A program made the translations under genes and the position numbers. From positions 1 to 58,224 of IMG/VR virus record IMGVR_UViG_3300036761_003285: 58,224 bases of DNA; one strand, 5' to 3'. Source of the stretch: a virus. Position 1 is the first letter of the stretch. Each line of letters begins with the position of its first letter. Under the pieces are notes generated by a model. That model worked only from the letters and a program-made list of their open reading frames with translations. It was not told where the DNA came from and did no database searches. Positions 3,226-44,770 of the stretch are shown here, in pieces.

Positions 3226-4731
3226 ATGGTAATCGTTAGTCCAGGTGTCTATAGCAGGGAAGTTGACTTGAGTTTGTACACCCCTCAGCTCGCAACGGCC
3301 ATCCTGGGTCTTATCGGGACCGCTTCAAAAGGTCCGGTGAATGAGGTCACTCTCATCACTGATGAGGGTCAACTCGTTGACACCTTTGGACCGCCTTCGG
3401 GGCAGCATTATGCCCTGTTTGCGGCAGTGCGGTTCCTGAGAAAAGGAAACCAGCTCAAGTTTGTCCGGGTGGCAGACTACGATATCGAGGCCACTGGTAC
3501 GATTAAGGACCAAACTCTCGCCGATGCCTTCTCGGTTCTGGCTGTGAGCTCCGGTTCTTGGGGGAACAACATCTCCTTACTGGTTGGTAGCGGAACCGAT
3601 GCGGGCACCTACAAGATTACCGTTCTCTACAACGGAATGTCTGCGGACGTGTATGACCTCTTGAAGGTCGGCCCGCTGAACGTTGATGACGTCAATTACA
3701 TCATGACCAGAATCAATGGTATCAGTGAGTACATCTCTGTGACGGCCCTTGCCAGTTCGACAACGCTCGACTCCGGGACGGTGACTCTTTCTGGTGGCGA
3801 TGACGGGGCACCCGCACAGGTTTCTGACTACATCGGCAGTGTTGGTGATCCGCCGACGATTCCAGCAACGGGATTGCAGCTGTTTGCTAATCCCGAGACT
3901 GAGGACGTCAACGTCATTGCAGTGCCAGGAATCAGTCACCGCTCGGTGATCTCCGCCATGCAGACGTTGTGCGAGAGCAGAGCAGACTGCATCTACATTA
4001 CTGCTCCGCCGTATGGCAAGACAGTGAAGCAGGCAGTGGCTTGGATGAACGGTCTTGGTGGCGGTCCTGAAGATCCCCTCACGTCGATCAACAGTTCCTA
4101 CGGAGCAGTGTTCTATCCGTGGATCAAAGTTTATGATGGTTACAGTGACTCCGAAGTCTGGATTCCACCTGATGGTCACGTTGCGGGTGCGATTGCCTTC
4201 ACTGACTTCGTGGCCGATCCGTGGTGGGCGATACTGGGCCTGAACAGAGGCCTCCTCAGTGACGCCCTCAATGTCGAGTACTCCGCTACTCAGGGCGAGC
4301 GAGACTACATGTACTCGAATGGCAACTCATTGAATCCAATCATCAACATGGCCGGCCAGGGAATTGTCATCTGGGGCCAGCGCACAGCCCAGCGACAGCC
4401 GACGGCTCTTGATCGCATCAACGTCCGCCGCTTGCTGCTGTACATGCGGAAGGCAATCGCAACGGCGACGCTGTCGCTTGTTGGTGAGCCTAACGATGAG
4501 GACACTTGGTCCCGTTTCCGCCTCCTGGTCAGTCCGATCATGGAGGAAATCAGAGGTCGCCGGGGCATCACTGACTATCAGGTCGTGTGCGACGAAACTA
4601 CGAACACTGCGGCCCGGCGTAACCGGAACGAGATGTATGCGAAGGTCATGTTCAAGCCCACCAAGACTGCGGAGATGATCCAGCTTGACTTCGTTATTCT
4701 CAACCAGCAGACCAGCTTCAGTGAGCTGTAG
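3226..4731 (+). CDS. Tail sheath protein
   Basis: 501 residues with the hallmark N-terminus of phage contractile-tail sheath proteins: SPGVYSREVDLS, followed by a hydrophobic LGLIGTASKGP element, and a C-terminal region (GQGIVIWGQRTAQRQPTALDRINVRRLL, split here as GIVIWGQRT and NVRRLLLYMRKAI) that matches the conserved sheath core. It forms the contractile outer cylinder and drives tube insertion. Start ATG 3226 is preceded by an AAGGAG site. It is followed after 32 bases by the tube gene, the usual order. It is the clearest proof that the phage is a myovirus. Confidence 0.97.
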   Translation: MVIVSPGVYSREVDLSLYTPQLATAILGLIGTASKGPVNEVTLITDEGQLVDTFGPPSGQHYALFAAVRFLRKGNQLKFVRVADYDIEATGTIKDQTLADAFSVLAVSSGSWGNNISLLVGSGTDAGTYKITVLYNGMSADVYDLLKVGPLNVDDVNYIMTRINGISEYISVTALASSTTLDSGTVTLSGGDDGAPAQVSDYIGSVGDPPTIPATGLQLFANPETEDVNVIAVPGISHRSVISAMQTLCESRADCIYITAPPYGKTVKQAVAWMNGLGGGPEDPLTSINSSYGAVFYPWIKVYDGYSDSEVWIPPDGHVAGAIAFTDFVADPWWAILGLNRGLLSDALNVEYSATQGERDYMYSNGNSLNPIINMAGQGIVIWGQRTAQRQPTALDRINVRRLLLYMRKAIATATLSLVGEPNDEDTWSRFRLLVSPIMEEIRGRRGITDYQVVCDETTNTAARRNRNEMYAKVMFKPTKTAEMIQLDFVILNQQTSFSEL

Positions 4732-6408: not shown

Positions 6409-7919
6409 TGGCTGAAGAACTTCTAACTGAGCAGATCTTTAGGGCAAAGTTTGACGACCAAGTAACAGGTCCGGCCCAAGAGGCTGTTGACAAAGCGAGG
6501 AAGATGTTTGAAGACTTGGCCTCTTCAATGAAGGCAGAGATCAATTCTGTGCGAGGTGGGGCAGAAGGCGGTCCAAAGTTGTCAGGTACATTCAGAGCAG
6601 AAGTCACGCCCGGGGCTGCAACAACAGCGTCAGCTTCAATTGGGATGACTGATGATTTTCGAATATCAATGATCTACCTCGGTAAGGCTCTTCTCGGAAT
6701 AGTCCAACTTCTCAGAAAGGCTGAGGGGAAAAAGAAACCAGAGGAAGAAGGGGGTACTCTTGCTGAAAAGACAAGGAGATGGGCCGGATTCAAGGAACTG
6801 GCAAGATCTTTCAAAGATGAGATGCACAAGAATTTTTCTCTCATCAAGGGATTCTTGGTCGGTACAATACTGGGCCCGGCAATAGAGGAGTTCTTTGCGT
6901 TTCTTGAGCCTGTTATCACACCATTCATCGAGATGTTTAGGTCACTGATCCGTCATCCTGAGGTGAGAAAGTTCTTGGACTGGATCACCATAAAATCACA
7001 AGAGGCGGCTCGTTCGCTTACTCGAGTATTCGGCCTTTGGATTGAGAAGCATGTTCCGAGGATCACGAAGTGGCTTCAAGCTGAGCTTCCCCGTTGGTGG
7101 GATGAGTTCATCGCTCGTTGGAAGATTCGCGGCAAAGAAATACTGGATTGGATTTCAAACTTTTACGAGAGGTGGATCAAGCCTGTTGTTAAGGCTTTTC
7201 AGGACATGAGCAAAGTTCAGATTGGGGGACAATCACTGGCGGCCTGGATTTTCGATATTGGTATTGCACTCTTTATCATCGGGCAACTCTTTGGGTGGAT
7301 GCTTCCTCTGGTTATGATGTTAGGAAGTGGGCTAGGCTGGCTGTTCCGTTCAGCGCTGATACCATTGGTTCGGTTTCTGTTCTTGACACCCTGGGGTTTA
7401 TTGATTGCGGGATTGTTGGCACTCGGATGGGCAATTCACAAACTCGTTCCTGGAGAGGATTTTCTGGTGAAGTTGAAGAACGCTGGACTGATCATCTGGG
7501 ACTACTGGAGTTGGTTATTCACGAATCTAGGCGGATTCATTGCACACTGGGCAAAAGGGTTGTGGGGGCGGATTACTGGCCGCGGCGGTGAGACAGGAGA
7601 ATACAAGTGGACAAAAAGGGAGTGGGAGCATCTTCCGATTGAGAAGAAGGGCGGTGGCCTTACAGCTGAAGGCGCTGCGGCTGCGATCCCGATCGAGCCG
7701 ACTCTTGAAGGAATGGCTCCTGAGTGGTTAAAGGGTATGTTGCCCGGAGCTACCCCTTCCGTCTCGGGTGCAGAAGGGTCGTCAGCAGGAAGAGTGGAAG
7801 ATCTGCTTTTGAACATCAATAACACACTGAAGGGCGGATTCACGGATACTGCTGACGCGCTTGTTGGCGGCGGAAAAGATCTTGATTTCGGAATGGATCT
7901 TGATTGGAACCCTGCATGA
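6408..7919 (+). CDS. Putative tape measure protein (short)
   Basis: 503 residues. Position directly after the assembly-chaperone pair is where the tape measure is encoded. The sequence is helical, with an amphipathic first half, then hydrophobic segments at about 270-350 (AWIFDIGIALFIIGQLFGW, LLIAGLLALGW) and 360-385, as expected for a tape measure that passes through the host membrane. It is short for the class; at about 1.5 angstrom per residue it would set a tail near 75 nm. Start ATG 6408 overlaps the previous stop. Assignment rests on synteny and hydrophobic pattern. Confidence 0.7.
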   Translation: MAEELLTEQIFRAKFDDQVTGPAQEAVDKARKMFEDLASSMKAEINSVRGGAEGGPKLSGTFRAEVTPGAATTASASIGMTDDFRISMIYLGKALLGIVQLLRKAEGKKKPEEEGGTLAEKTRRWAGFKELARSFKDEMHKNFSLIKGFLVGTILGPAIEEFFAFLEPVITPFIEMFRSLIRHPEVRKFLDWITIKSQEAARSLTRVFGLWIEKHVPRITKWLQAELPRWWDEFIARWKIRGKEILDWISNFYERWIKPVVKAFQDMSKVQIGGQSLAAWIFDIGIALFIIGQLFGWMLPLVMMLGSGLGWLFRSALIPLVRFLFLTPWGLLIAGLLALGWAIHKLVPGEDFLVKLKNAGLIIWDYWSWLFTNLGGFIAHWAKGLWGRITGRGGETGEYKWTKREWEHLPIEKKGGGLTAEGAAAAIPIEPTLEGMAPEWLKGMLPGATPSVSGAEGSSAGRVEDLLLNINNTLKGGFTDTADALVGGGKDLDFGMDLDWNPA

Positions 7920-17926: not shown

Positions 17927-18585
17927 AGCAAGGTGTTCTAGTTGGTTGTTCGAGAGAGCAAGAGGACTTGCTCGAATGGTGGTGGGGGTGCTACAGTAAG
18001 CACAATACCCTTCCAGTCTGTTTTGTCACTTACGAGTTTGATCTAAAGGACAGTCTTCGTTTGTTGGAAAGAGGCGAAGTGGTTCAAAGTAACGAACCTT
18101 TCTCCAAAGGGACATTCAGGAAGGTGACAGCATTTAGTTTGTCGCCATTTGATGTTAATCTCTGGCTGGATCTTGACTGTGAAGTTCGAGGCGATCTCAG
18201 TCCGATTTTCTCGCTCTTTTCCTCGGGTTGTGTTTTCTGCCCCCGGGGCCCTCGCAAGTGCGGAACAAATGATCCATATGGTTGGTTCAAGATGTGTAAC
18301 TCCGGGTCATGGGTGAGAGATACTGGTCTCATTCTTGCTGATCGAGACGGTCGTTTGTATCGAAAGTGGTTTGCTGATGTGCAAGCTTTCAGCCATATGT
18401 ATCACGGTGAAAACGAGACGCTTGTGGTTGTTGCTGACCGTGAAGGACTTCCGATTGGCGAGGTTTCAGATCAGATGTTTCAATCGTGTCATCTTAATGT
18501 ATACCCGAATCCACTCGTGTTCCACTGGATCGGAGGCCGCGGGAAGTATCTACTCAGAGAGAGGATCGCCCGTGAAAGACTTTGA
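17923..18585 (+). CDS. GT8-like glycosyltransferase, single domain
   Basis: 220 residues from ATG 17923, overlapping the previous stop as ATGA; the open frame extends to 17704, but that part is antisense-like noise inside the preceding gene. It is a paralogue of the two GT8-like domains upstream: LLEWWWGCYSKHNTLPVCFV (17-36) and LDLDCEVRGDLSP with DxD at 83-85. The middle contains FCPRGPRKCG. Tandem duplication of one domain is the simplest origin. Acceptor unknown. Confidence 0.75.
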   Translation: MKQGVLVGCSREQEDLLEWWWGCYSKHNTLPVCFVTYEFDLKDSLRLLERGEVVQSNEPFSKGTFRKVTAFSLSPFDVNLWLDLDCEVRGDLSPIFSLFSSGCVFCPRGPRKCGTNDPYGWFKMCNSGSWVRDTGLILADRDGRLYRKWFADVQAFSHMYHGENETLVVVADREGLPIGEVSDQMFQSCHLNVYPNPLVFHWIGGRGKYLLRERIARERL

Positions 18586-20962
18586 AGTTATTAACCCTAT
18601 TATTACTGGGAAACAAGAGCTGAGCTACCGAACAGGGCAAGGGAAGTATTATCACTTCAACGTGAGGGGTGATACTTTTGCTCTTGATGTGAACTCACTG
18701 ATGTTAATTCGAGGCCTGAAAGAGAATCTACCTCCTCCAAGTGACGAAGTTTCTCAGTTTCCATTCTGTCCTAATCGCAATGTGCTGGCACTTCTATTCT
18801 GTCTTACTCATCAGTGCAATCTGAAGTGCAAGTATTGTTACGTTGATCGGTTGTATTCATCTAACGATCGGATGACTCCCGAGATTGCCGCTACAGCGTT
18901 GACAACCTTGGTCAATCCTGATGCTGTGAGAAAGCAGGGGCTTCGGATCAGCTTTTTCGGAGGAGAGGCACTACTTGAATTCGAACTTCTCAAGCAGATT
19001 GTCTCGCTAGTCAGAACAGCTTTCCCGTCCCCCTGCCCTGTGCAGTTCAGTCTCACGACGAACGGGACGTTGTTGACTAAACCGATTGCTAAGTTCTTGG
19101 TTGAGCATAGCTTTTCAGTGATACTCTCGTTGGATGGCCCTCGTGAGCTCCACAATGAGACACGAATCTCTAGAGGAGGAGCGGGCTCCTTTGATGTTGC
19201 TCTTGAAGGACTCACTTTGTTGAACGAAGTAGCTCTGAAGAAGATTACTCTGAGAGCAACTTTCTTTCCCGAAAATCCTCGAATCATGGAGCGATTGGTG
19301 TTCTTGAATGCACTTTGTGATCAGGGCTTGGCTGCGAATGTCTCAATTGAACCTTCGATCTTGACTGAAAGTGAATGTGCCGCACAAGAGATTGATCAGT
19401 TTCAGGACAAGATCAACGCGGCAAGACTCGAGGCTGAGTACGCTGAGGCTACTGATTGGCTCCTCGGGCGATTGCGGCAGAAGAAGCCTGCGCGTTTCCA
19501 CAATATCATGCTCTATGCTGAGCGATTACTCTATCGTCGAAAGTACTGCAGTGATTGCGGAGCTGGCGTTGGGTATATCTCCATAGGACCAACAGGGAAG
19601 ATCTTTGCCTGCCACAGAGAGACCAACAGCTTGATCGGTGATCTCTCTCAGGGAGGGATAGACGAAGCACTAAGAGCACAGTGGGTAGACAATCGCTACT
19701 ATGTCAACAAAGAGTGTCGGCGGTGTGATCTTCGAAACGTTTGCGGAGGAACTTGCCGAGAGCATTCGCTTGGATCAATGGGTGATATCTTTGATGTTGA
19801 TCCGGTTCGTTGTACTTTCAAGCGACTGTGGATCCACTCAGCTGTGTATCTGATCTCCGAGCTTCCATCTGCTGATCGGACAAGTCTGATTCTGCAGAAG
19901 AAGCCACAGAAGGTCGAACTTCCTGATTCAAAGAAGGAGCGGTTCAACCTTGTTCGGGAAGCTGGCGGGTTTGGTGATATCATCTCCATTGGAGGTGCTG
20001 CTGTTCAGATCAAGAAGGAGTTCCCGAACTCGGAGATTTGCTTGTACTTGCCTGATGATTTCGTTGATGTTGCGAAGCATCTTCGTGAAATCGACCAAGT
20101 AGTAGGTCTTGGTTCTGTTGAGACACTATCTAAGCAACGTCGTGTTCGAGGCGAGAAGTTTGATTCTGGAAAGTACACATACCTTTCGAAAGTGGCTAAC
20201 CGGGGCTTAGTTGTTGATCTCTGGTGTCCTGCAGTCAAGTACGAGCAGCAAGAGAAGGATCGCATTCAGCACACACGTTCGCAGATCTTTGCAAGTGTGA
20301 TATGTAAGGAAGACTCACATGCGATTCCTCGTTGGTTCTCAACTCCTGCAGAACGTGTAAAAGCAAGTAGCTATCTGAACAAGGCATTTGGAGATCCTAG
20401 TGATACTGGACCAACAATCGCCCTGGCTGCAAGAGGCACAAAGGCGGAGAAGAATATTTCAGAGCACCATTTGCAGGATCTGCTTACTTGGTTGATCTCT
20501 AAGAACAGCAATGTTGTGTGGATGGATTGTTTGGATCCCTCTGTCATTCTACACGGGTTTGCCAACAACAAGATAGTTTGGCCGAATGTATCATTCTGTG
20601 AATCCGTAGCAATTCTCGAGCAGTGTGATCTTCTCATTTCTGTTGATACTGGAATCTTTCATGCTGGTGTGGCTGCTCGAGTTCCTACTGTTGGTGTGTT
20701 TGGGATGACAGATGGGAACCCTTATATTGGATTCTACCCCTTGACGTACGTCGTACAGAATGAAGTGCCCCATGAAGGCATTTGCACGATACCTTGCAAT
20801 TCATCTTCGGAAAAAGGACACATTGTAGGTTGTAGTCTGGCATGCGCGCGGATGCAGAACTTGTCGTTTGATGAGTTGAAGCTGGCTGTTCTTTCGGCAA
20901 TGAAGACGGCATCAGCTCCTCAGTTTCAGGAGTACCGGTTGCGCCTATTTGATGAGAAATGA
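18572..20962 (+). CDS. Radical SAM/SPASM enzyme fused to GT9-type glycosyltransferase
   Basis: 796 residues from GTG 18572, chosen because AGAGAGG lies just upstream and the longer frame is noise within the previous gene. Residues about 70-300: radical SAM domain with CNLKCKYC (C82, C86, C89), FFGGEALLE (128-136), TTNGTLL and LSLDGP (186-190). Residues 326-414: SPASM Cys set (CSDCG, CHRE, CRRC, CGGTC, C414) for auxiliary Fe-S clusters. Residues about 455-796: GT9/heptosyltransferase-like domain with GGFGDIISIGG (465-475) and SVDTGIFHAGVAARVPTVGVFG (split: SVDTGIFHAG at 690-699). SPASM enzymes usually modify peptides. Fusion with a glycosyltransferase is rare to my knowledge. Confidence 0.85.
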   Translation: MKDFEVINPIITGKQELSYRTGQGKYYHFNVRGDTFALDVNSLMLIRGLKENLPPPSDEVSQFPFCPNRNVLALLFCLTHQCNLKCKYCYVDRLYSSNDRMTPEIAATALTTLVNPDAVRKQGLRISFFGGEALLEFELLKQIVSLVRTAFPSPCPVQFSLTTNGTLLTKPIAKFLVEHSFSVILSLDGPRELHNETRISRGGAGSFDVALEGLTLLNEVALKKITLRATFFPENPRIMERLVFLNALCDQGLAANVSIEPSILTESECAAQEIDQFQDKINAARLEAEYAEATDWLLGRLRQKKPARFHNIMLYAERLLYRRKYCSDCGAGVGYISIGPTGKIFACHRETNSLIGDLSQGGIDEALRAQWVDNRYYVNKECRRCDLRNVCGGTCREHSLGSMGDIFDVDPVRCTFKRLWIHSAVYLISELPSADRTSLILQKKPQKVELPDSKKERFNLVREAGGFGDIISIGGAAVQIKKEFPNSEICLYLPDDFVDVAKHLREIDQVVGLGSVETLSKQRRVRGEKFDSGKYTYLSKVANRGLVVDLWCPAVKYEQQEKDRIQHTRSQIFASVICKEDSHAIPRWFSTPAERVKASSYLNKAFGDPSDTGPTIALAARGTKAEKNISEHHLQDLLTWLISKNSNVVWMDCLDPSVILHGFANNKIVWPNVSFCESVAILEQCDLLISVDTGIFHAGVAARVPTVGVFGMTDGNPYIGFYPLTYVVQNEVPHEGICTIPCNSSSEKGHIVGCSLACARMQNLSFDELKLAVLSAMKTASAPQFQEYRLRLFDEK

Positions 20963-28607: not shown

Positions 28608-28613
28608 GTGACC

Positions 28614-31202
28614 ATGGAAGATCTGACTCAACGAGCGTTCATAGTTGATGCCAACGTCTTGGCCAAGATGAATCGACGACGTCGCGTTTCACGCAAGGAC
28701 GTTGATGGCCCGAAGCGACCCGCCACGCCGGGCCGAAAGAGAACGATATCTCCGGTTGTTCGAGATTGTACTGTCTGCGGACTTGATAAAGAGTGTCAAT
28801 CACCAAAGATGGAGCCTACGGGTAACGGGCAGATGCAGATTCTGCTCTGTGGAGAGGCGCCGGGTGATGTTGAAGATCACAAAGGTGTGCAGTTTGTTGG
28901 ACCTACTGGATCGCATCTTGATGATAGTATAAGAGAGCTTGGGATTGAGATGCATCGAGATTGCTTTCTTACTAACGCAATCCAGTGCAAGCTGCTTGCA
29001 GGGTCGGGAAAGAAGAAGGCTAAGATGGACTTTTGGGCCGACTGCTGTAGAGCTCGGCTTGAAACTCAGATACTCCGTATGAAGCCTCGGCTAATCATTG
29101 CCTTTGGCGCTCCGGCGATGCGAGCAATACTCAGGCCAAAGTTTGGTGATCCGGGCTCTACACAGTACCACGGTCTCGTCTTTCCCTCTCTGAAGTTCAA
29201 CTGCTGGGTAGGGTGCTGCTGGCATCCATCATACGTGACCAGGGAGATCGAGAAAGGCAACGAGAGCATCCAAGAGTTGTTCTTGCAAGCGCTGGCAACC
29301 TTTCTTGATTTCCTAGGAAAGCCGATTCCTGCACCCCTTCCAGAGAATCACATTGTTCTCAAAGACTTCGACCTCGCCCGTGAGTTTCTTCAGGGCATGT
29401 GTCAGTGTACTTTGCCCACAGCATTTGACTACGAGACAACCAGATTGCACCCATCTGGTGGACCTGAGTCGCGAATCTACTGTGCGTCTTTCTCTACTAA
29501 CCCCGAAGAGGGGTTTTGGCTTCCTCTCCAGATGCCTGCATTTTGGACTCCCGAACAGCAAGTTGAGCTTCTCGTTCTCCTCGGTGAGTGGCTGAGATCA
29601 CCGTGCCCGAAGGTGATTCAGAATCGATCGATGGAAGAGCGTTGGTCAGCATCAGAGCTTGCCACGGAGATCGAGAATGTTATCAACGATACCATGGTAA
29701 CACATCACGTCATCTACAACCGGGCTCGTACGACGAATCTGGGCTTTCAGTCGTTCATGCTGAGGGGTGTTGACTACAAAGGTGAGGTCAACGTCGAGCA
29801 GAACGATTGGTGTGACCACGAACCAATTGATAAAGTCATCAAGTATTCGTGTTACGATTCGCAGTATACCCTTCTTGCTCACCAGGAGCAACAGAAGATT
29901 CTAGATCGAGAACCTGTCCTCAAGCAGGCAGCGGGATTCTTTCTTAAGTGCCTCAAGCCACTGATCAGAATGGAGGTTAGAGGCTTTGCCGTGGATAAGA
30001 AGAGGCTTGCTGATCAGCGCAAGGAGGCCGAGACCAAGCAGGCCGAGTGTGCTAATTTCATTGCCAAGCATGAGTTTGTCGAGCAGTTCAAGAAGAAGTT
30101 CGATCGTGACTCATGGGGACCGGGATCGGACAAGGATTTCATTGATCTCTTCTACCGCACTCTCGGATTGAAACCTCCGCCGTGGACTACAGAGGGCGGA
30201 GGCTACCCGTCGGACAAGGACGCCGTTGCATTCATTCTGAAGAGTGTGCAAGACGCCAAGCTGAAAGAGTTCTTTGAAAAGATGCTATCTTGGCGGAGGT
30301 ACGACACTCTGCTGTCAACTTTCATTGGCGGGTTCGAGAGAGCTCTTCAACCAGACGGTCTTATTCATCCAAGTTTTCTTCTCAACACTGTGGCTAGTTA
30401 CAGGTCGAGTTCTTCCAATCCCAATCTCCAGAATCTGCCAAAACGAGCGGAGGAGCATTCCGAGTTTCGCAAGATCGTGATTCCCCACGTTGGCAGCCTG
30501 ATCACAGAGGCAGATGCGAGCGGATCAGAGGTTGTAACGATTGCGATGATGTCGGGTGACGCGGTGTTGATCCAGCAGATCAAAGAAAAGTTTGATCCTC
30601 ATCGCTACTGGGCTACAAAGTTGTGGGAGTGGGATGATCCTTCCAAGGTGACGAAGAATCAGCGGTTCCTCTCCAAGAACAAGTTTGTCTTTCCTGAGTT
30701 TTATGGGTCCTACTACAAGACCTGCGCTGCAGATCTCGAACTTCCCGAGCGCCACGTCATGAGGGTTGAGAGAGAGTTCTGGCAGATGTACAAGGGCGTT
30801 AAAAGATGGCAGGAACTACTTGTAAAAGCTTACGACCGGACAGGTTACGTTGAGTTGCCGCTTGGGTTTAGGCGGTATGCTCCACTGTCGAAGAACCAGA
30901 TTCTCAATACTCCTGTTCAGGGAACGAGTTTTCACATGCTTCTTGAAGCCATTCGAGAGTCGGACGAGGAGATGGTTCGTCGACAGATGAGGAGTCTGAT
31001 TGAGCTCGAAGTACACGACAGTATGGTAACCGATGTGGTTCTGGAAGAGCTCGACGATGTCCGGAAGATCCAGTTGACGGCGATGACGAGACATCAGTGG
31101 GATTGGCAACGTGACGTGCCGAGAAGCGCTGAATGGCTCGAGGGTCCAAATTGGGGCGAGCAGAAAGAGGTCAAGGATGCTCTACCAACAAGTAAGGCCT
31201 AA
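28614..31202 (+). CDS. Uracil-DNA glycosylase / family A DNA polymerase fusion
   Basis: 862 residues from ATG 28614 (GTG 28608 possible). Residues 45-235: family 4-type uracil-DNA glycosylase with CTVCGLDKEC (C52, C55, C61) and CCWHPSY (C201/C202, H204) for a 4Fe-4S site, GEAPGDVED (80-88) and VGPTG. Residues 265-430: 3'-5' exonuclease (FDYE, D272/E274; CYDSQYT, D415). Residues 440-862: family A polymerase with SSSSNPNLQNLP (598-609), motif A TEADASGSEV (D633), motif B with FYGSYYK (696-702) and motif C EVHDSMVTD (D802; HDS instead of HDE). SPO1-type polymerases carry a similar glycosylase domain. The replicative polymerase of the phage. Confidence 0.92.
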   Translation: MEDLTQRAFIVDANVLAKMNRRRRVSRKDVDGPKRPATPGRKRTISPVVRDCTVCGLDKECQSPKMEPTGNGQMQILLCGEAPGDVEDHKGVQFVGPTGSHLDDSIRELGIEMHRDCFLTNAIQCKLLAGSGKKKAKMDFWADCCRARLETQILRMKPRLIIAFGAPAMRAILRPKFGDPGSTQYHGLVFPSLKFNCWVGCCWHPSYVTREIEKGNESIQELFLQALATFLDFLGKPIPAPLPENHIVLKDFDLAREFLQGMCQCTLPTAFDYETTRLHPSGGPESRIYCASFSTNPEEGFWLPLQMPAFWTPEQQVELLVLLGEWLRSPCPKVIQNRSMEERWSASELATEIENVINDTMVTHHVIYNRARTTNLGFQSFMLRGVDYKGEVNVEQNDWCDHEPIDKVIKYSCYDSQYTLLAHQEQQKILDREPVLKQAAGFFLKCLKPLIRMEVRGFAVDKKRLADQRKEAETKQAECANFIAKHEFVEQFKKKFDRDSWGPGSDKDFIDLFYRTLGLKPPPWTTEGGGYPSDKDAVAFILKSVQDAKLKEFFEKMLSWRRYDTLLSTFIGGFERALQPDGLIHPSFLLNTVASYRSSSSNPNLQNLPKRAEEHSEFRKIVIPHVGSLITEADASGSEVVTIAMMSGDAVLIQQIKEKFDPHRYWATKLWEWDDPSKVTKNQRFLSKNKFVFPEFYGSYYKTCAADLELPERHVMRVEREFWQMYKGVKRWQELLVKAYDRTGYVELPLGFRRYAPLSKNQILNTPVQGTSFHMLLEAIRESDEEMVRRQMRSLIELEVHDSMVTDVVLEELDDVRKIQLTAMTRHQWDWQRDVPRSAEWLEGPNWGEQKEVKDALPTSKA

Positions 31203-36697: not shown

Positions 36698-37384
36698 ATG
36701 AAAGTGGTTGAGATTTTTCAAACTATCCAAGGTGAAGGGCTCTTTTCTGGGGCTGTGACAGTTTTTGTGCGATTCGCGGGCTGCTCTCTCAGATGCCCTG
36801 AGTGCGATACCAAGTATGCCTGGGAAAACAAAGATATTCAGGAGGTTGGGGCCCCATTCGTTGTTGACAAGATCATCGATATCTCAGCTCGTCCTCGCCA
36901 CATCTGTATTACCGGCGGAGAGCCCCTCGAGCAACCCAAGAGTGACCTGTTCAACCTCCTTCAGATCTTCCATGGATGGGTCGGTAATAGGGGTCTTCAA
37001 TCAGTTGTAATTGAGACCAACGGTGCCCAAGATGTCAGCTGGGTGTTTGGCAAGCCATTCAGACCAATCACTCATTTGTCTGTTGACTACAAACTGCCCA
37101 GTTGCGGCAGAGAGGGAAGTATGCTGTTCAACAACTTCACCAAGTTGGGTAGTACGGATGTCATCAAGTTCGTCTGTGCAAACGTTGATGACGTCAACTA
37201 TGCCGGGATGGTACTGCAGAAACTCGCGGGCAACGTCGAAGCCTGTCCGGTGATTCTCTTTCACGCCCTTGGCGGGCAACCTGCAAATTGGCTTCCTCGA
37301 ATCATCTTGGGGTGGGAAGGCCTCCTCGAGCGATTTGACGTCCGGGTCGGTGTTCAGTTACACAAGTTGTATAAGGTGAGGTAA
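36698..37384 (+). CDS. queE: 7-carboxy-7-deazaguanine synthase QueE
   Basis: 228 residues. IFQTIQGEGLFSGAVTVFVR at the N-terminus is the QueE hallmark; radical SAM CSLRCPEC (C29, C33, C36) binds the 4Fe-4S cluster; ITGGEPLEQ (residues about 71-79) binds SAM. It converts 6-carboxytetrahydropterin to 7-carboxy-7-deazaguanine, the step before QueC. It lies 11 kb from queC/folE/queF/dpdA within the replication genes. The step before it (QueD) is not encoded in the window. Confidence 0.93.
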   Translation: MKVVEIFQTIQGEGLFSGAVTVFVRFAGCSLRCPECDTKYAWENKDIQEVGAPFVVDKIIDISARPRHICITGGEPLEQPKSDLFNLLQIFHGWVGNRGLQSVVIETNGAQDVSWVFGKPFRPITHLSVDYKLPSCGREGSMLFNNFTKLGSTDVIKFVCANVDDVNYAGMVLQKLAGNVEACPVILFHALGGQPANWLPRIILGWEGLLERFDVRVGVQLHKLYKVR

Positions 37385-41450: not shown

Positions 41451-41651
41451 ATGTATTGTACAAAGTGCCACTTTGGATCTGAGATCTGCAAGTTTCCGTC
41501 AATTGGAGAGGAAAAAAGGAGAAAGGACGGGTCGACGTTCACTGCTTATCTGTTCCGCTGTCCTCAGTGTGGCTGTCTTGACAAGAGCCACTTGCGTACG
41601 AAGCCCCACGGCGTCCAGACGAGGAAGAATGATCGCAAAACTGGAGATTGA
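41451..41651 (+). CDS. Small zinc-ribbon protein
   Basis: 66 residues, GAGGAG site before ATG 41451. MYCTKCHFG...YLFRCPQCGCLDK gives two C-x-x-C pairs 35 residues apart, a rubredoxin-like zinc ribbon; the tail is basic. Function unknown; it overlaps the Rad50-like gene by 23 bases, so translation is coupled. Confidence 0.7.
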   Translation: MYCTKCHFGSEICKFPSIGEEKRRKDGSTFTAYLFRCPQCGCLDKSHLRTKPHGVQTRKNDRKTGD

Positions 41652-42837
41652 GAACTTTCAGTCGCATGAAAGTTCTGCCTTGGACTTTTGCCCGGGTGTT
41701 AACGTAATCGTTGGCAGCAGTGACAGTGGCAAGAGTGCGATTCTTCGGGCAATCTACTGGGTACTTTACAACCGGCCCGCAACTACATCAATCATTCGCA
41801 ACGGGTCAGGGACAACGGGGAGCCGAGGAGCGTCGCGGCTTGGTACAGCCCGAGTAGACCTATCAGTGGTTCGAAAGGACGGCATTGCCGGCAAGGTGGG
41901 CAGAGTTCGCGGCCATGAGGCTAACCAGTACTTCGTCGACGCCAAGAAGTTTTCGGCAATCGGCAAGGATATTCCAGAAGAGGTACTGCATATTCTCAAT
42001 CTGGACAAGATCAACGTTCAGCGTCAGCTCGATCTGCCCTATCTTCTACTTGACCCATCAGGAGAAGTGGCCCTCACCTTCAACAAGTTCACTAATCTGG
42101 ATCAAATTGACAAGCTTATTCTCCTCATTGGAGTAGAGATGAGAGACGCCCAGGCGGGGAAGAAGTTTGCCGAGGAGACTCTCGCAAAGCTGTCGGAAGA
42201 GCTGAAGAAGTTTGAGTCTGTCGATAACTTGGAGGCTCTTGTTGGCGCCTTCGAAGAGGTTGACAAGGAGATTCAGGAGAAGACAGCGAAGGAATCTCGT
42301 TTGACCGAAGCTGCTGATACCATCGTCGAGGTGAAAGCTGAAAGAGACTCCAATCTCTCCAGACTTACCGACTGTAACATTCTGCTTTCGAAATTGCTGG
42401 CCAAGAGAGATGACCTGGTTGCAATGAAGGCGTCGATTGATGCGATAAGTAAATGTCGAGATGACTGTCTGACACTTGCCAGTAACATCCGAAGTACCCG
42501 GGGGAGAATAGACGAGATCAATAAGTACCTGCCTGGCAGGATAGAGCAGATGGATAGCCTCAAGAAGGCCGTTGTACACGGTCGCATGCTAGAAGAGGTA
42601 GAAGGATCGATCTCTCAAGTTTCTTTGAAGAGGTCGAGGGTATGCAACTTGCGTGACATTGTGGATAGTCTGTCCGGTCAGCTCGACGTGCTGGATGAAA
42701 ACACGATTGGTCACAGAGTTCTACTTGATGATGCTAGGAAAGAGCTCGCATCTGTAGATATTTGTATTCTGTGCGGGCAGAAGCTTGCAACAGATGAAGC
42801 CAAGGCGACAATGCTTGCGAACGTGAGGAAGGCATGA
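41629..42837 (+). CDS. Rad50/SbcC-like N-terminal half with zinc hook (split gene, part 1)
   Basis: 402 residues from ATG 41629 (GAGG site). ABC-type Walker A GSSDSGKS (29-36) after IENFQSHESSALDF, the standard start of Rad50/gp46 proteins. About 170-370 is coiled coil. CILCGQKL (C379, C382) is the zinc hook, after which only 20 residues remain. The signature, Walker B and descending coil are absent. They occur in the gene at 44168. The protein normally dimerises through the hook and works with the Mre11-like nuclease, encoded next (4-base overlap). Confidence 0.88.
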   Translation: MIAKLEIENFQSHESSALDFCPGVNVIVGSSDSGKSAILRAIYWVLYNRPATTSIIRNGSGTTGSRGASRLGTARVDLSVVRKDGIAGKVGRVRGHEANQYFVDAKKFSAIGKDIPEEVLHILNLDKINVQRQLDLPYLLLDPSGEVALTFNKFTNLDQIDKLILLIGVEMRDAQAGKKFAEETLAKLSEELKKFESVDNLEALVGAFEEVDKEIQEKTAKESRLTEAADTIVEVKAERDSNLSRLTDCNILLSKLLAKRDDLVAMKASIDAISKCRDDCLTLASNIRSTRGRIDEINKYLPGRIEQMDSLKKAVVHGRMLEEVEGSISQVSLKRSRVCNLRDIVDSLSGQLDVLDENTIGHRVLLDDARKELASVDICILCGQKLATDEAKATMLANVRKA

Positions 42838-43796
42838 AGTTACTGCTGATAAGTGATATCCATGCACGGTATCTGCCACCGATCAACAGAACCGAAAAGG
42901 ACTTCTTTGCTGAGGCAGTTATTAACAAGCTCTATCAGGTACTGGAGATCGCAAGGCAGCGGCAGTGTAGAGTGATTCTTCAAGCCGGAGACCTCTTTGA
43001 CAACCCGAACCCGAGTAAGTATGTGATCGCTTCACTCATGCGATTGTTCAAGTCTTTCGACATTCCAATCTTGACTGTGCTTGGGCAGCATGATATGGTG
43101 ATGCGAAACTTTGATGCTGTCAACAGGACCGGAACATACCTGTTAGAGGCTGGAGAAGCGGTGGCGATACTCGGACTCATGCAATGTCAACACAGGATCG
43201 TCTTGCTTGACGACATACTGGTTCACGGGCTGAACTTTGAGCAAGACTTTGATTTGCCAGTACCAGATACGAGTCGAAGGAACATCTTGATTGCTCATGC
43301 TTCAGTAGGGACGGACCCATTGTTTCCCGGCCATGTCATCCAATCACCAAGGGAGTTTATCAGGAAGAACCCGGGTTACGAGATGATACTTGTGGGTGAT
43401 TATCACTACACTTTCGAAGATGAGTGGAAGGGATGCAAGATATACAACACCGGATGCATGATTCGCAAGACGATCAAGCAGGAAGATCTGAACCACCGTC
43501 CTTGTGTGTTTGTCTACGATACAGAAACTCATTCAGCCGAGAAGGTCTTTCTGAAAATCAGCCCTGTTGAGGTTGCCTTCTCAATCAACAGAGCGGAGAA
43601 GAAAGACGATACGAAGCTGAAACGCTTCATTGAGATCCTATCCGAGCAGAAGCAGTTGTCGGTGTCGTTTGATGACAATCTTCGAGTCTATTATCAGAAC
43701 AACCAAGTGCCCGATGCGGTGAAGAAGCTGATTGCGGCGAAGATGTATCAGGTTGGCCTGATAGGGACAAGTGAGTTTAGAGAAGTGACAAAGTGA
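42834..43796 (+). CDS. Mre11/SbcD-like nuclease (gp47-like)
   Basis: 320 residues. Metallophosphoesterase motifs in order: SDIH (7-10), GDLFD (52-56), GQHD (84-87, instead of GNHD), AHAS (154-157) and GDYHY (188-192). It processes DNA ends with the Rad50-like ATPase. The gene lies between the two halves of that ATPase, with 4-base overlaps. The start ATG 42834 shares bases with the previous stop. Confidence 0.9.
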   Translation: MKLLLISDIHARYLPPINRTEKDFFAEAVINKLYQVLEIARQRQCRVILQAGDLFDNPNPSKYVIASLMRLFKSFDIPILTVLGQHDMVMRNFDAVNRTGTYLLEAGEAVAILGLMQCQHRIVLLDDILVHGLNFEQDFDLPVPDTSRRNILIAHASVGTDPLFPGHVIQSPREFIRKNPGYEMILVGDYHYTFEDEWKGCKIYNTGCMIRKTIKQEDLNHRPCVFVYDTETHSAEKVFLKISPVEVAFSINRAEKKDDTKLKRFIEILSEQKQLSVSFDDNLRVYYQNNQVPDAVKKLIAAKMYQVGLIGTSEFREVTK

Positions 43797-43987
43797 AACA
43801 GGCAGTCAAATGTGTACTTTTCTTTACTGCTGGCACGCTGATACTTCTAAGCACACCGCTTTTTGTGCTCATTGGGCTACTTCTAGTCCTAGGTATGTAC
43901 ATGGATGAAAGGATCGAATATGGACGTCAAAGAAATTCAGAAGCGGATCGACGATCTCCAGACTGTGATCAAGCAGGAGGAGAATAA
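43793..43987 (+). CDS. Small membrane protein within Mre11/Rad50 operon
   Basis: 64 residues, GTG 43793 overlapping the nuclease stop (GTGA). Residues about 5-35 are a hydrophobic hairpin (LFFTAGTLILLSTPLFVLIG, then LLLVLGMYM), followed by a charged tail. The last 68 bases overlap the coiled-coil gene in a different frame. Function unknown; a membrane anchor for the complex is speculation. Confidence 0.5.
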   Translation: MKQAVKCVLFFTAGTLILLSTPLFVLIGLLLVLGMYMDERIEYGRQRNSEADRRSPDCDQAGGE

Positions 43988-44171
43988 CCGAGCAAAACTT
44001 GAAGGGCGGCTTCAGGAGCTGCAGTTGCAACTCGAGAAGGAGTTCAGCGTTAAGACGAGTGACGAAGTCTCGGCACTGATCACCAAGCTCGATTCTGAGC
44101 TGAAGGCGCTGGGCGAGGAGCGATTGCATATCATGGAAGAGTTGGATAAACTTTTGGCAGGGTCAAAGTGA
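43920..44171 (+). CDS. Coiled-coil protein between Rad50 halves
   Basis: 83 residues from ATG 43920 (AAAGGA site; ATG 43905 also possible). Two coiled-coil stretches with heptad spacing (IQKRIDDLQTVIKQEENNRA; LITKLDSELKALGEERLH) flank a short polar break (SVKTSDEVS). It sits between the nuclease and the C-terminal Rad50 half with a 4-base overlap. It could supply part of the missing coil, but it has no CxxC hook. Confidence 0.65.
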   Translation: MDVKEIQKRIDDLQTVIKQEENNRAKLEGRLQELQLQLEKEFSVKTSDEVSALITKLDSELKALGEERLHIMEELDKLLAGSK

Positions 44172-44770
44172 CCAGTTACAGAGAGACACTGAACAAGCTC
44201 AAGGGAATGCGAGACATCTATCGTCAGCAGCATCAGGATGCTGAGAAGAAGATCTTGTCTCTGTCTCAGCAGATAGCTGAGCTTGAATCTGCCAGAGAGG
44301 TCGTTAACTCCGTGATGGTCGCAACACAGAGTACTGTCAAGGGCTTCATCGAAGAGGTCGTATCCTTGGCACTCAAGACCGTGTTCGGTGATACCTATGC
44401 TCTGAAAGTAGCCTATGAGATCAAACGCAACAAGCCCGAAGCTTCGCTGATGATCCTGAAGGATGGCATTGAGTTTGATCCAACTGATGAAGTCGGCGGG
44501 GGAGTAATTGACGTTGCCGCACTTGGCCTGCGAATGGCAATGTGGGCCTTGGCCAACCCCAAACCGGAGCCAGTACTTATTCTTGACGAGCCTGGAAAGT
44601 TTGTATCCAGGGACTTGATCGAAGAGTTTGGCAAGATGATCAAGATTTGTTCGGAAATGCTCAGCCTACAGATCATTATGGTTTCTCATGATCCAGCGAT
44701 GATCGCCGTTGCTGACCGCTCGTTTGAGGTGACCCAAACCAACGGCGTGTCAAAGGTGAACGTTGTATAA
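44168..44770 (+). CDS. Rad50/SbcC-like C-terminal half (split gene, part 2)
   Basis: 200 residues from GTG 44168. A coiled-coil start (residues 1-45) leads to the C-terminal ABC lobe: signature region EVGGGVIDVAALGLR (108-122), Walker B and D-loop VLILDEPGKFVS (136-147), and H-loop VSHD (172-175). Walker A and hook are absent and are found in 41629-42837. Together they restore one complete Rad50-type ATPase site. The block is closed by a terminator-like hairpin at 44819. Confidence 0.85.
   Translation: MTSYRETLNKLKGMRDIYRQQHQDAEKKILSLSQQIAELESAREVVNSVMVATQSTVKGFIEEVVSLALKTVFGDTYALKVAYEIKRNKPEASLMILKDGIEFDPTDEVGGGVIDVAALGLRMAMWALANPKPEPVLILDEPGKFVSRDLIEEFGKMIKICSEMLSLQIIMVSHDPAMIAVADRSFEVTQTNGVSKVNVV

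Follow-up and report, generated by a model that had tools for sequence, protein, structure and literature searches.

A phage SbcC/Rad50 encoded in two halves that probably associate in trans

The window analysed here is the whole 58,224-bp viral contig IMGVR_UViG_3300036761_003285 of IMG/VR, which may be a genome fragment and comes from a contractile-tailed phage. SbcC/Rad50 is present across life and is always drawn as a single chain that ascends a coiled coil, passes through a zinc hook and returns. In the window it is encoded by two separate genes, an N-half with the N-lobe, the arm and a terminal hook motif, and a C-half with the C-lobe; an SbcD/Mre11-like gene lies between them. In our judgement these genes quite probably encode a split SbcCD (Mre11-Rad50-like) nuclease, whose halves associate in trans. 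Direct observations behind this reading are the gene layout, the motifs, the complementary homology of the halves, the conservation of the split, the co-inheritance of the genes, the existence of circularly permuted relatives and the modelling of one relative as a single chain. The open reading frames (ORFs) and motifs are:

41629..42837, + strand: SbcC/Rad50 N-half of 402 aa; N-lobe carrying Walker A, then the arm and, close to the C-terminus, the CxxC hook
41713..41736, + strand: Walker A GSSDSGKS, residues 29-36 of the N-half (sequence and conservation)
42763..42774, + strand: CILC zinc-hook half-site, residues 379-382 of the N-half, 24 residues before the protein end
42834..43796, + strand: SbcD/Mre11-like metallophosphoesterase, 320 aa (PF00149, phrog_100, motifs)
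43793..43987, + strand: doubtful ORF of 64 aa, short and hydrophobic, not conserved as a part of the system
43920..44171, + strand: small protein s, 83 aa, predicted helical hairpin; alternative start at 43905 (conserved-family profile hidden Markov model, HMM)
44168..44770, + strand: SbcC/Rad50 C-half, 200 aa; coil, signature, Walker B, D-loop, H-loop
44492..44500, + strand: signature region GGG, motif DEVGGGVIDVAALGLRMA, residues 109-111 of the C-half (sequence and alignment)
44573..44590, + strand: Walker B VLILDE, residues 136-141 of the C-half; D140 and E141 invariant in alignment A1
44687..44689, + strand: H-loop histidine H174 of the C-half, invariant in alignment A1

The genes overlap by four bases at the N-half/SbcD, SbcD/hydrophobic ORF and s/C-half junctions. 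The start of s at 43920 is preceded by AAAGGA and is therefore more likely than that at 43905.

An earlier sequence-only reading of this DNA had assigned Walker A and a CxxC hook close to the C-terminus to the first gene, and the signature, Walker B and H-loop to a separate gene downstream. Both assignments held. The N-half matches Pfam AAA_23 (E 2.7e-18) and phrog_16465 (E 3.8e-28, covering residues 2-235 of 402), and the C-half matches phrog_15167 (E 1.5e-36). The two halves are complementary, since the N-half matches the start (positions 3-49 of 878) and the C-half the end (positions 694-878) of one and the same NCBIfam Rad50 model, NF003034. On Methanocaldococcus jannaschii Rad50 (3aux_A) the N-half family profile matches the head at 5-163, and the C-half family profile matches at 169-370. 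Among solved structures, the C-half is matched best by the separate C chains of Pyrococcus furiosus Rad50 (1f2t/1ii8/3qkr, crystallised as chains A and B). G29, G34 and K35 of Walker A are invariant across 22 relatives. Thus the Rad50-type N-lobe with its Walker A is present, and so is the C-lobe, on a separate protein. The single chain joining both lobes through the coiled coil and a central hook is absent: there is no N-C ORF, and the hook is terminal. Because this feature fails, we filed the system as a split variant and not as an ordinary SbcC.

Related loci were gathered from cultured phages and from IMG/VR, 234 of them remaining after removal of redundancy. That the two halves return so often in one operon goes far beyond chance. 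All four genes (N-half, SbcD, s and C-half) are carried by 183 of these loci, in the order N-SbcD-s-C in 142 loci and N-s-C-SbcD in 40. In 207 of 208 complete N-halves a CxxC motif lies 6-34 residues before the C-terminus; zinc binding and dimerisation through it are predicted. The sole exception (L032, 2209-3312) has lost the motif, and its hook region reads GLCPIVEEFGSC. None of the 234 loci contained an ORF matching both the N and the C profile. Opposite ends of Escherichia coli SbcC are recognised by the two profiles (E 1.7e-11 and 4e-6), which means that the search would have revealed a fusion of the E. coli type. The split is also found in the cultured Bacillus phage vB_BboS-125 and on a plasmid (L314). 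In nine loci on six contigs (L045, L051, L054, L221, L224 and L227) SbcD is fused to the N-half in a protein of 707-805 aa and the C-half is separate; an SbcD-N fusion occurs on a plasmid as well (L313). The sequence-only reading had considered the arrangement an unusual trait of this phage, which the survey contradicts: the split Rad50 is a widespread lineage present in hundreds of phages. It had also held that two open halves with their own starts are not a simple frameshift, and here the survey agrees with it. An artefact (a frameshift, a misassembly or a pseudogene that broke recently) was rejected on the ground of conservation across the 234 loci, and we assign it a negligible probability: nothing but the small gene overlaps speaks for it, against the persistence of the split in all these loci, in vB_BboS-125 and on plasmids, the separate starts of the halves and the terminal position of the hook throughout. 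As a separate observation, the BFVD entries A0A516LLJ2 (193 aa) and A0A516LLJ5 (338 aa), whose accessions are three apart, look like the C-half and the N-half of one virus.

A separate full-length Rad50 in the genome had been named beforehand as a finding that would speak against the split. The 58-kb contig, possibly a fragment, contains no full-length SbcC, its single AAA_23 match being the N-half; likewise, when 24 whole records from relatives were scanned, nothing but the N-half gave an AAA_23 match above the cut-off. Microbacterium phage Magritte has a single AAA_23 (N-lobe) match at 93.8 kb and its C-half at 0.3 kb. In the jumbo phage record LR745208 the single AAA_23 match lies about 8 kb upstream of the C-half; in the same record (L003:4849-5982) a sliding-clamp-like gene stands between the small coiled-coil gene and the C-half.

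The strongest evidence that the halves are one unit came from plasmids. In a tblastn search of plasmids the C-half matched the beginning of a protein of 635 aa encoded by pMPPla107. This protein has phrog_15167 (C-half) at 46-196, phrog_16465 (N-half) from 238 and a terminal CPTC hook. Relatives of this permuted SbcC were present in 21 records of large proteobacterial plasmids (L312:3923-5830 and 20 more). Seven of the proteins, from Pseudomonas, Vibrio, Variovorax, Bosea, Alteromonas and Aeromonas, were examined. All seven have the C profile before the N profile and a CxxC near the C-terminus, and Walker B precedes Walker A wherever the pattern finds both. An s-type gene lies upstream, confirmed by profile in three cases and recognised by position in others. 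The downstream gene is clearly SbcD-like in two cases and diverged in three, and in two the profile does not recognise it. At least seven large plasmids encode, by sequence, a circularly permuted SbcC in the order C-lobe, N-lobe, arm, hook. In these proteins the halves are joined at the head and not via the hook, which argues that they belong together. A pattern scan of viral contigs found no permuted protein, a result that leaves its absence from viruses unproven.

We also considered whether each half might dimerise or act alone and form no joint head. The two genes can be far apart, as in Magritte, which is what such independence would allow. Against it, neither half has all the motifs needed for ATP hydrolysis, N and C nearly always co-occur, plasmids carry the natural circularly permuted fusion, and Rad50 crystallised as two chains provides a precedent. 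We regard independent halves as very improbable. The family distances of all four proteins are strongly correlated (0.82 for N-C, 0.84 for C-SbcD and 0.78 for SbcD-s). When N was compared with C by direct-coupling analysis (254 pairs, Neff 168), true pairing gave 39 inter-protein pairs among the top 100 couplings; once the pairs had been shuffled or neighbours swapped, there were none.

The relative L065 has its N- and C-genes side by side in one frame, and they were read through two stops as one chain for AlphaFold2. Both lobes were predicted mostly with a pLDDT (predicted local distance difference test) of about 80-97, the arm poorly. The lobes align jointly to the Rad50 structures 3qku_A (Z 14.8, 310 residues, root-mean-square deviation (rmsd) 5.9) and 3qkt_D (Z 14.6, 269 residues, rmsd 5.0). 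Together with the permuted homologues, the model supports a single ATP-binding cassette (ABC) head, which N-half and C-half would probably close by protein-protein contact.

The predicted partner nuclease is the product of the gene that follows the N-half. It matches Metallophos PF00149 (E 3.6e-11) and the SbcD-like phrog_100 (E 6.9e-9), and it has the motifs DIH, GDLFD, GQHD and GDYH; a phosphoesterase of the Mre11/SbcD type is thus present. The hydrophobic ORF between SbcD and s is sporadic, a comparable one being found in 16 of 197 relatives, and for this reason it is not regarded as a conserved part. The sequence-only reading had placed the nuclease, a membrane protein and a coiled-coil protein between the halves; the first and the last of these are conserved, the membrane ORF is not.

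Several points weigh against the reading as a split SbcCD nuclease. Two of the usual metal ligands of SbcD are substituted (GQHD for GNHD, GDYH for GHxH), as in much of the family, about half of which is similar. The C-terminal end of T4 gp46 is weakly seen by the C profile, so that a fused form of the T4 type could escape the search for ORFs matching both profiles; the observation that the N ORFs end at the hook is not affected by this. Phylogeny alone could produce pairing-dependent couplings between N and C, and therefore we take them solely as a sign of close co-inheritance. L065 is a divergent relative in which s was not recognised, its chain was obtained by reading through two stops and has a short linker, and its model deviates from Rad50 heads by 5-6 Å over 270-310 residues.

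We infer that in the cell the complex would be built as follows. N-half and C-half would pair in trans to make one ABC ATPase head. Two such heads would carry the SbcD nuclease at their base, and zinc held by the terminal CxxC hooks would link the tips of the two N-half arms. Since the C-half gives just a short coil, most of the arm, with its helical repeats of about 47 residues, would be supplied by the N-half. Small protein s would be a further, conserved subunit, probably packed against the arm, the hook or the base formed by SbcD and the C-half. Like Mre11-Rad50 or T4 gp46/47, this putative ATP-dependent DNA nuclease and end tether may bind, tether and nucleolytically process the ends of phage DNA, and its role may lie in recombination-dependent replication and repair of phage DNA.

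The arm of the N-half ranges from 127 to 352 residues across relatives in steps of about 47, with length classes near 133, 182, 230, 297 and 345 residues. A 47-residue autocorrelation is present in all length classes, and in the model of L210 (N-half L210:4281-5723) the helix breaks are spaced about 47-50 residues apart. The arm therefore reads as a series of tandem helical repeats of about 47 residues. In L280 (2716-3944) two overlapping ORFs of 193 and 247 aa seem to make up a broken N-half, perhaps the result of a frameshift.

The profile HMM of s matches the s of the window (E 2.6e-15) and had no matches among reversed ORFs. It found s in 73 of the first 90 loci and in 194 of all 234, and the family adjoins SbcD or the C-half. 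PHROG 18563 matches the Bacillus and L045 members of s; the s of the window has no listed match to it and is tied to that PHROG via the s HMM alone. By these matches and the correlated family distances, s is a genuine partner, conserved and co-inherited. L036 seemed to offer a natural s-C fusion and was rejected, the s HMM match (6544-6789) lying in another frame and overlapping an over-long C ORF.

The earlier reading had imagined a three-part Rad50 whose fold is closed by contact between proteins. The closed head is probable, as described above; the third part of the arm is another matter. If s were the distal segment of the descending arm, N, s and C would rebuild an ordinary equal-armed Rad50. 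The order N-s-C, colinear with Rad50, in 40 loci agrees with this, as do the loci L012, L202, L205 and L210, in which s follows N in frame after a single stop, and the arm of the commonest class (about 182 residues), which comes near the sum of s and the C coil (about 156). The lengths argue otherwise: s is nearly constant at 77-101 residues while the arm varies in steps of about 47 (correlation -0.07), so s is not simply the missing arm length. Moreover, the arm carries its own 47-residue repeat, the L210 model predicts s as a helical hairpin (helices 486-529 and 534-560) and not as a single strand, and s was not recognised in 18 loci having N, SbcD and C. We consider a three-part arm unlikely. 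Alternatively, s may lie outside the arm, as an accessory subunit that belongs to SbcD or to the base of the C-half and acts as a DNA- or nuclease-regulating factor. It stays beside SbcD when the C-half is displaced (L009, L032, L033 and L048), and the SbcD-s distance correlation exceeds those of N-s and C-s; the differences among these correlations are small, however, in 129 of 183 loci no more than 60 bases separate s from the C-half, and in plasmids an s-type gene stands directly upstream of the permuted C-N protein. This accessory role is a tentative proposal, which we rate somewhat below an even chance.

A broader interpretation is that these proteins form a separate Rad50 lineage, with an arm of 47-residue repeats supplied by the N chain only, the hook at its tip, a C-lobe that is a detachable subunit and a small hairpin protein that regulates or bridges; its members would be split in phages, fused to SbcD in phages and plasmids, and circularly permuted in plasmids. 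This we hold to be nearly as likely as its opposite. Passage of one chain through the hook is thought central to hook-to-head signalling in Rad50, and in such a lineage the covalent passage would be unnecessary. The existence in phages and plasmids of a large lineage with the chain cut at the hook, or permuted, would mean that the covalent loop is not obligatory, and it would offer a natural separable system for asking how the hook communicates with the ATPase head. It would also explain hundreds of phage genes labelled merely 'exonuclease', 'ATPase' or 'hypothetical'.

Elsewhere in the window, tail sheath (3226-4731) and DNA polymerase (28608-31202) genes were identified. A small ORF with zinc-ribbon cysteines (41451-41651) lies just upstream of the N-half start and overlaps it. 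A QueE-like radical SAM protein encoded at 36698-37384 is a possible sign of 7-deazaguanine DNA modification, and 18335-20962 encodes another radical SAM protein.

In the open-access PMC papers searched we found no description of a split or a circular permutation of SbcC/Rad50. The parts are known as PHROG families: PHROG 16465, 15167 and 18563 hold the N-half, the C-half and the Bacillus-type s (for example gp32, gp35 and gp34 of Bacillus phage vB_BboS-125), but they record the parts alone ('exonuclease', 'ATPase', unknown) and not a split complex. In Bacillus phage 0305phi8-36 a Mre11/Rad50 fusion without one NTPase segment was reported (Yoshida 2011, PMC3175470); like the SbcD-N fusions of the present family, it joins SbcD to the N-half. 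Our contig L054 (218,948 bp) is probably this phage, and in L054, as in L214, a separate C-half gene lies downstream of the SbcD-N fusion. If the inferred identity of L054 is right, the segment reported missing in 2011 is probably the separate C-half gene. Jumbo phages with a split DNA polymerase III alpha and a multi-part RNA polymerase (PMC7824862) likewise have universal enzymes cut into separate proteins, although the proteins are unrelated.

The N-lobe, C-lobe, hook motif and partner nuclease of SbcCD/Mre11-Rad50 (E. coli SbcC-SbcD, archaeal Rad50) are homologous to the phage parts. SbcC differs in being one polypeptide instead of two, and its CxxC in E. coli is at residue 506 of 1048, whereas the phage hook is at the chain end; the 47-residue arm repeats and the extra small protein s go beyond SbcCD. 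T4 gp46/gp47 is, like the phage system, an SbcC/SbcD pair in an operon, and the role in recombination-dependent replication is likely the same. Unlike the split protein, gp46 is a single chain of 560 aa with its CxxC at residue 288, and 46.1 and 46.2, two small genes lying between those of gp46 and gp47 in T4, are unlike s, no match being found when they were compared with it. P. furiosus Rad50 (1f2t, 1ii8, 3qkr) resembles the phage system in that separate N and C chains make one ABC head; there the two chains are a laboratory construct, whereas the phage split is natural. The plasmid AAA family ATPases (for example WP_162305755.1 of pMPPla107) share with the phage system both lobes, the terminal hook and the neighbouring s-type and SbcD-like genes, but have C-half and N-half in one chain, with the C-lobe first.

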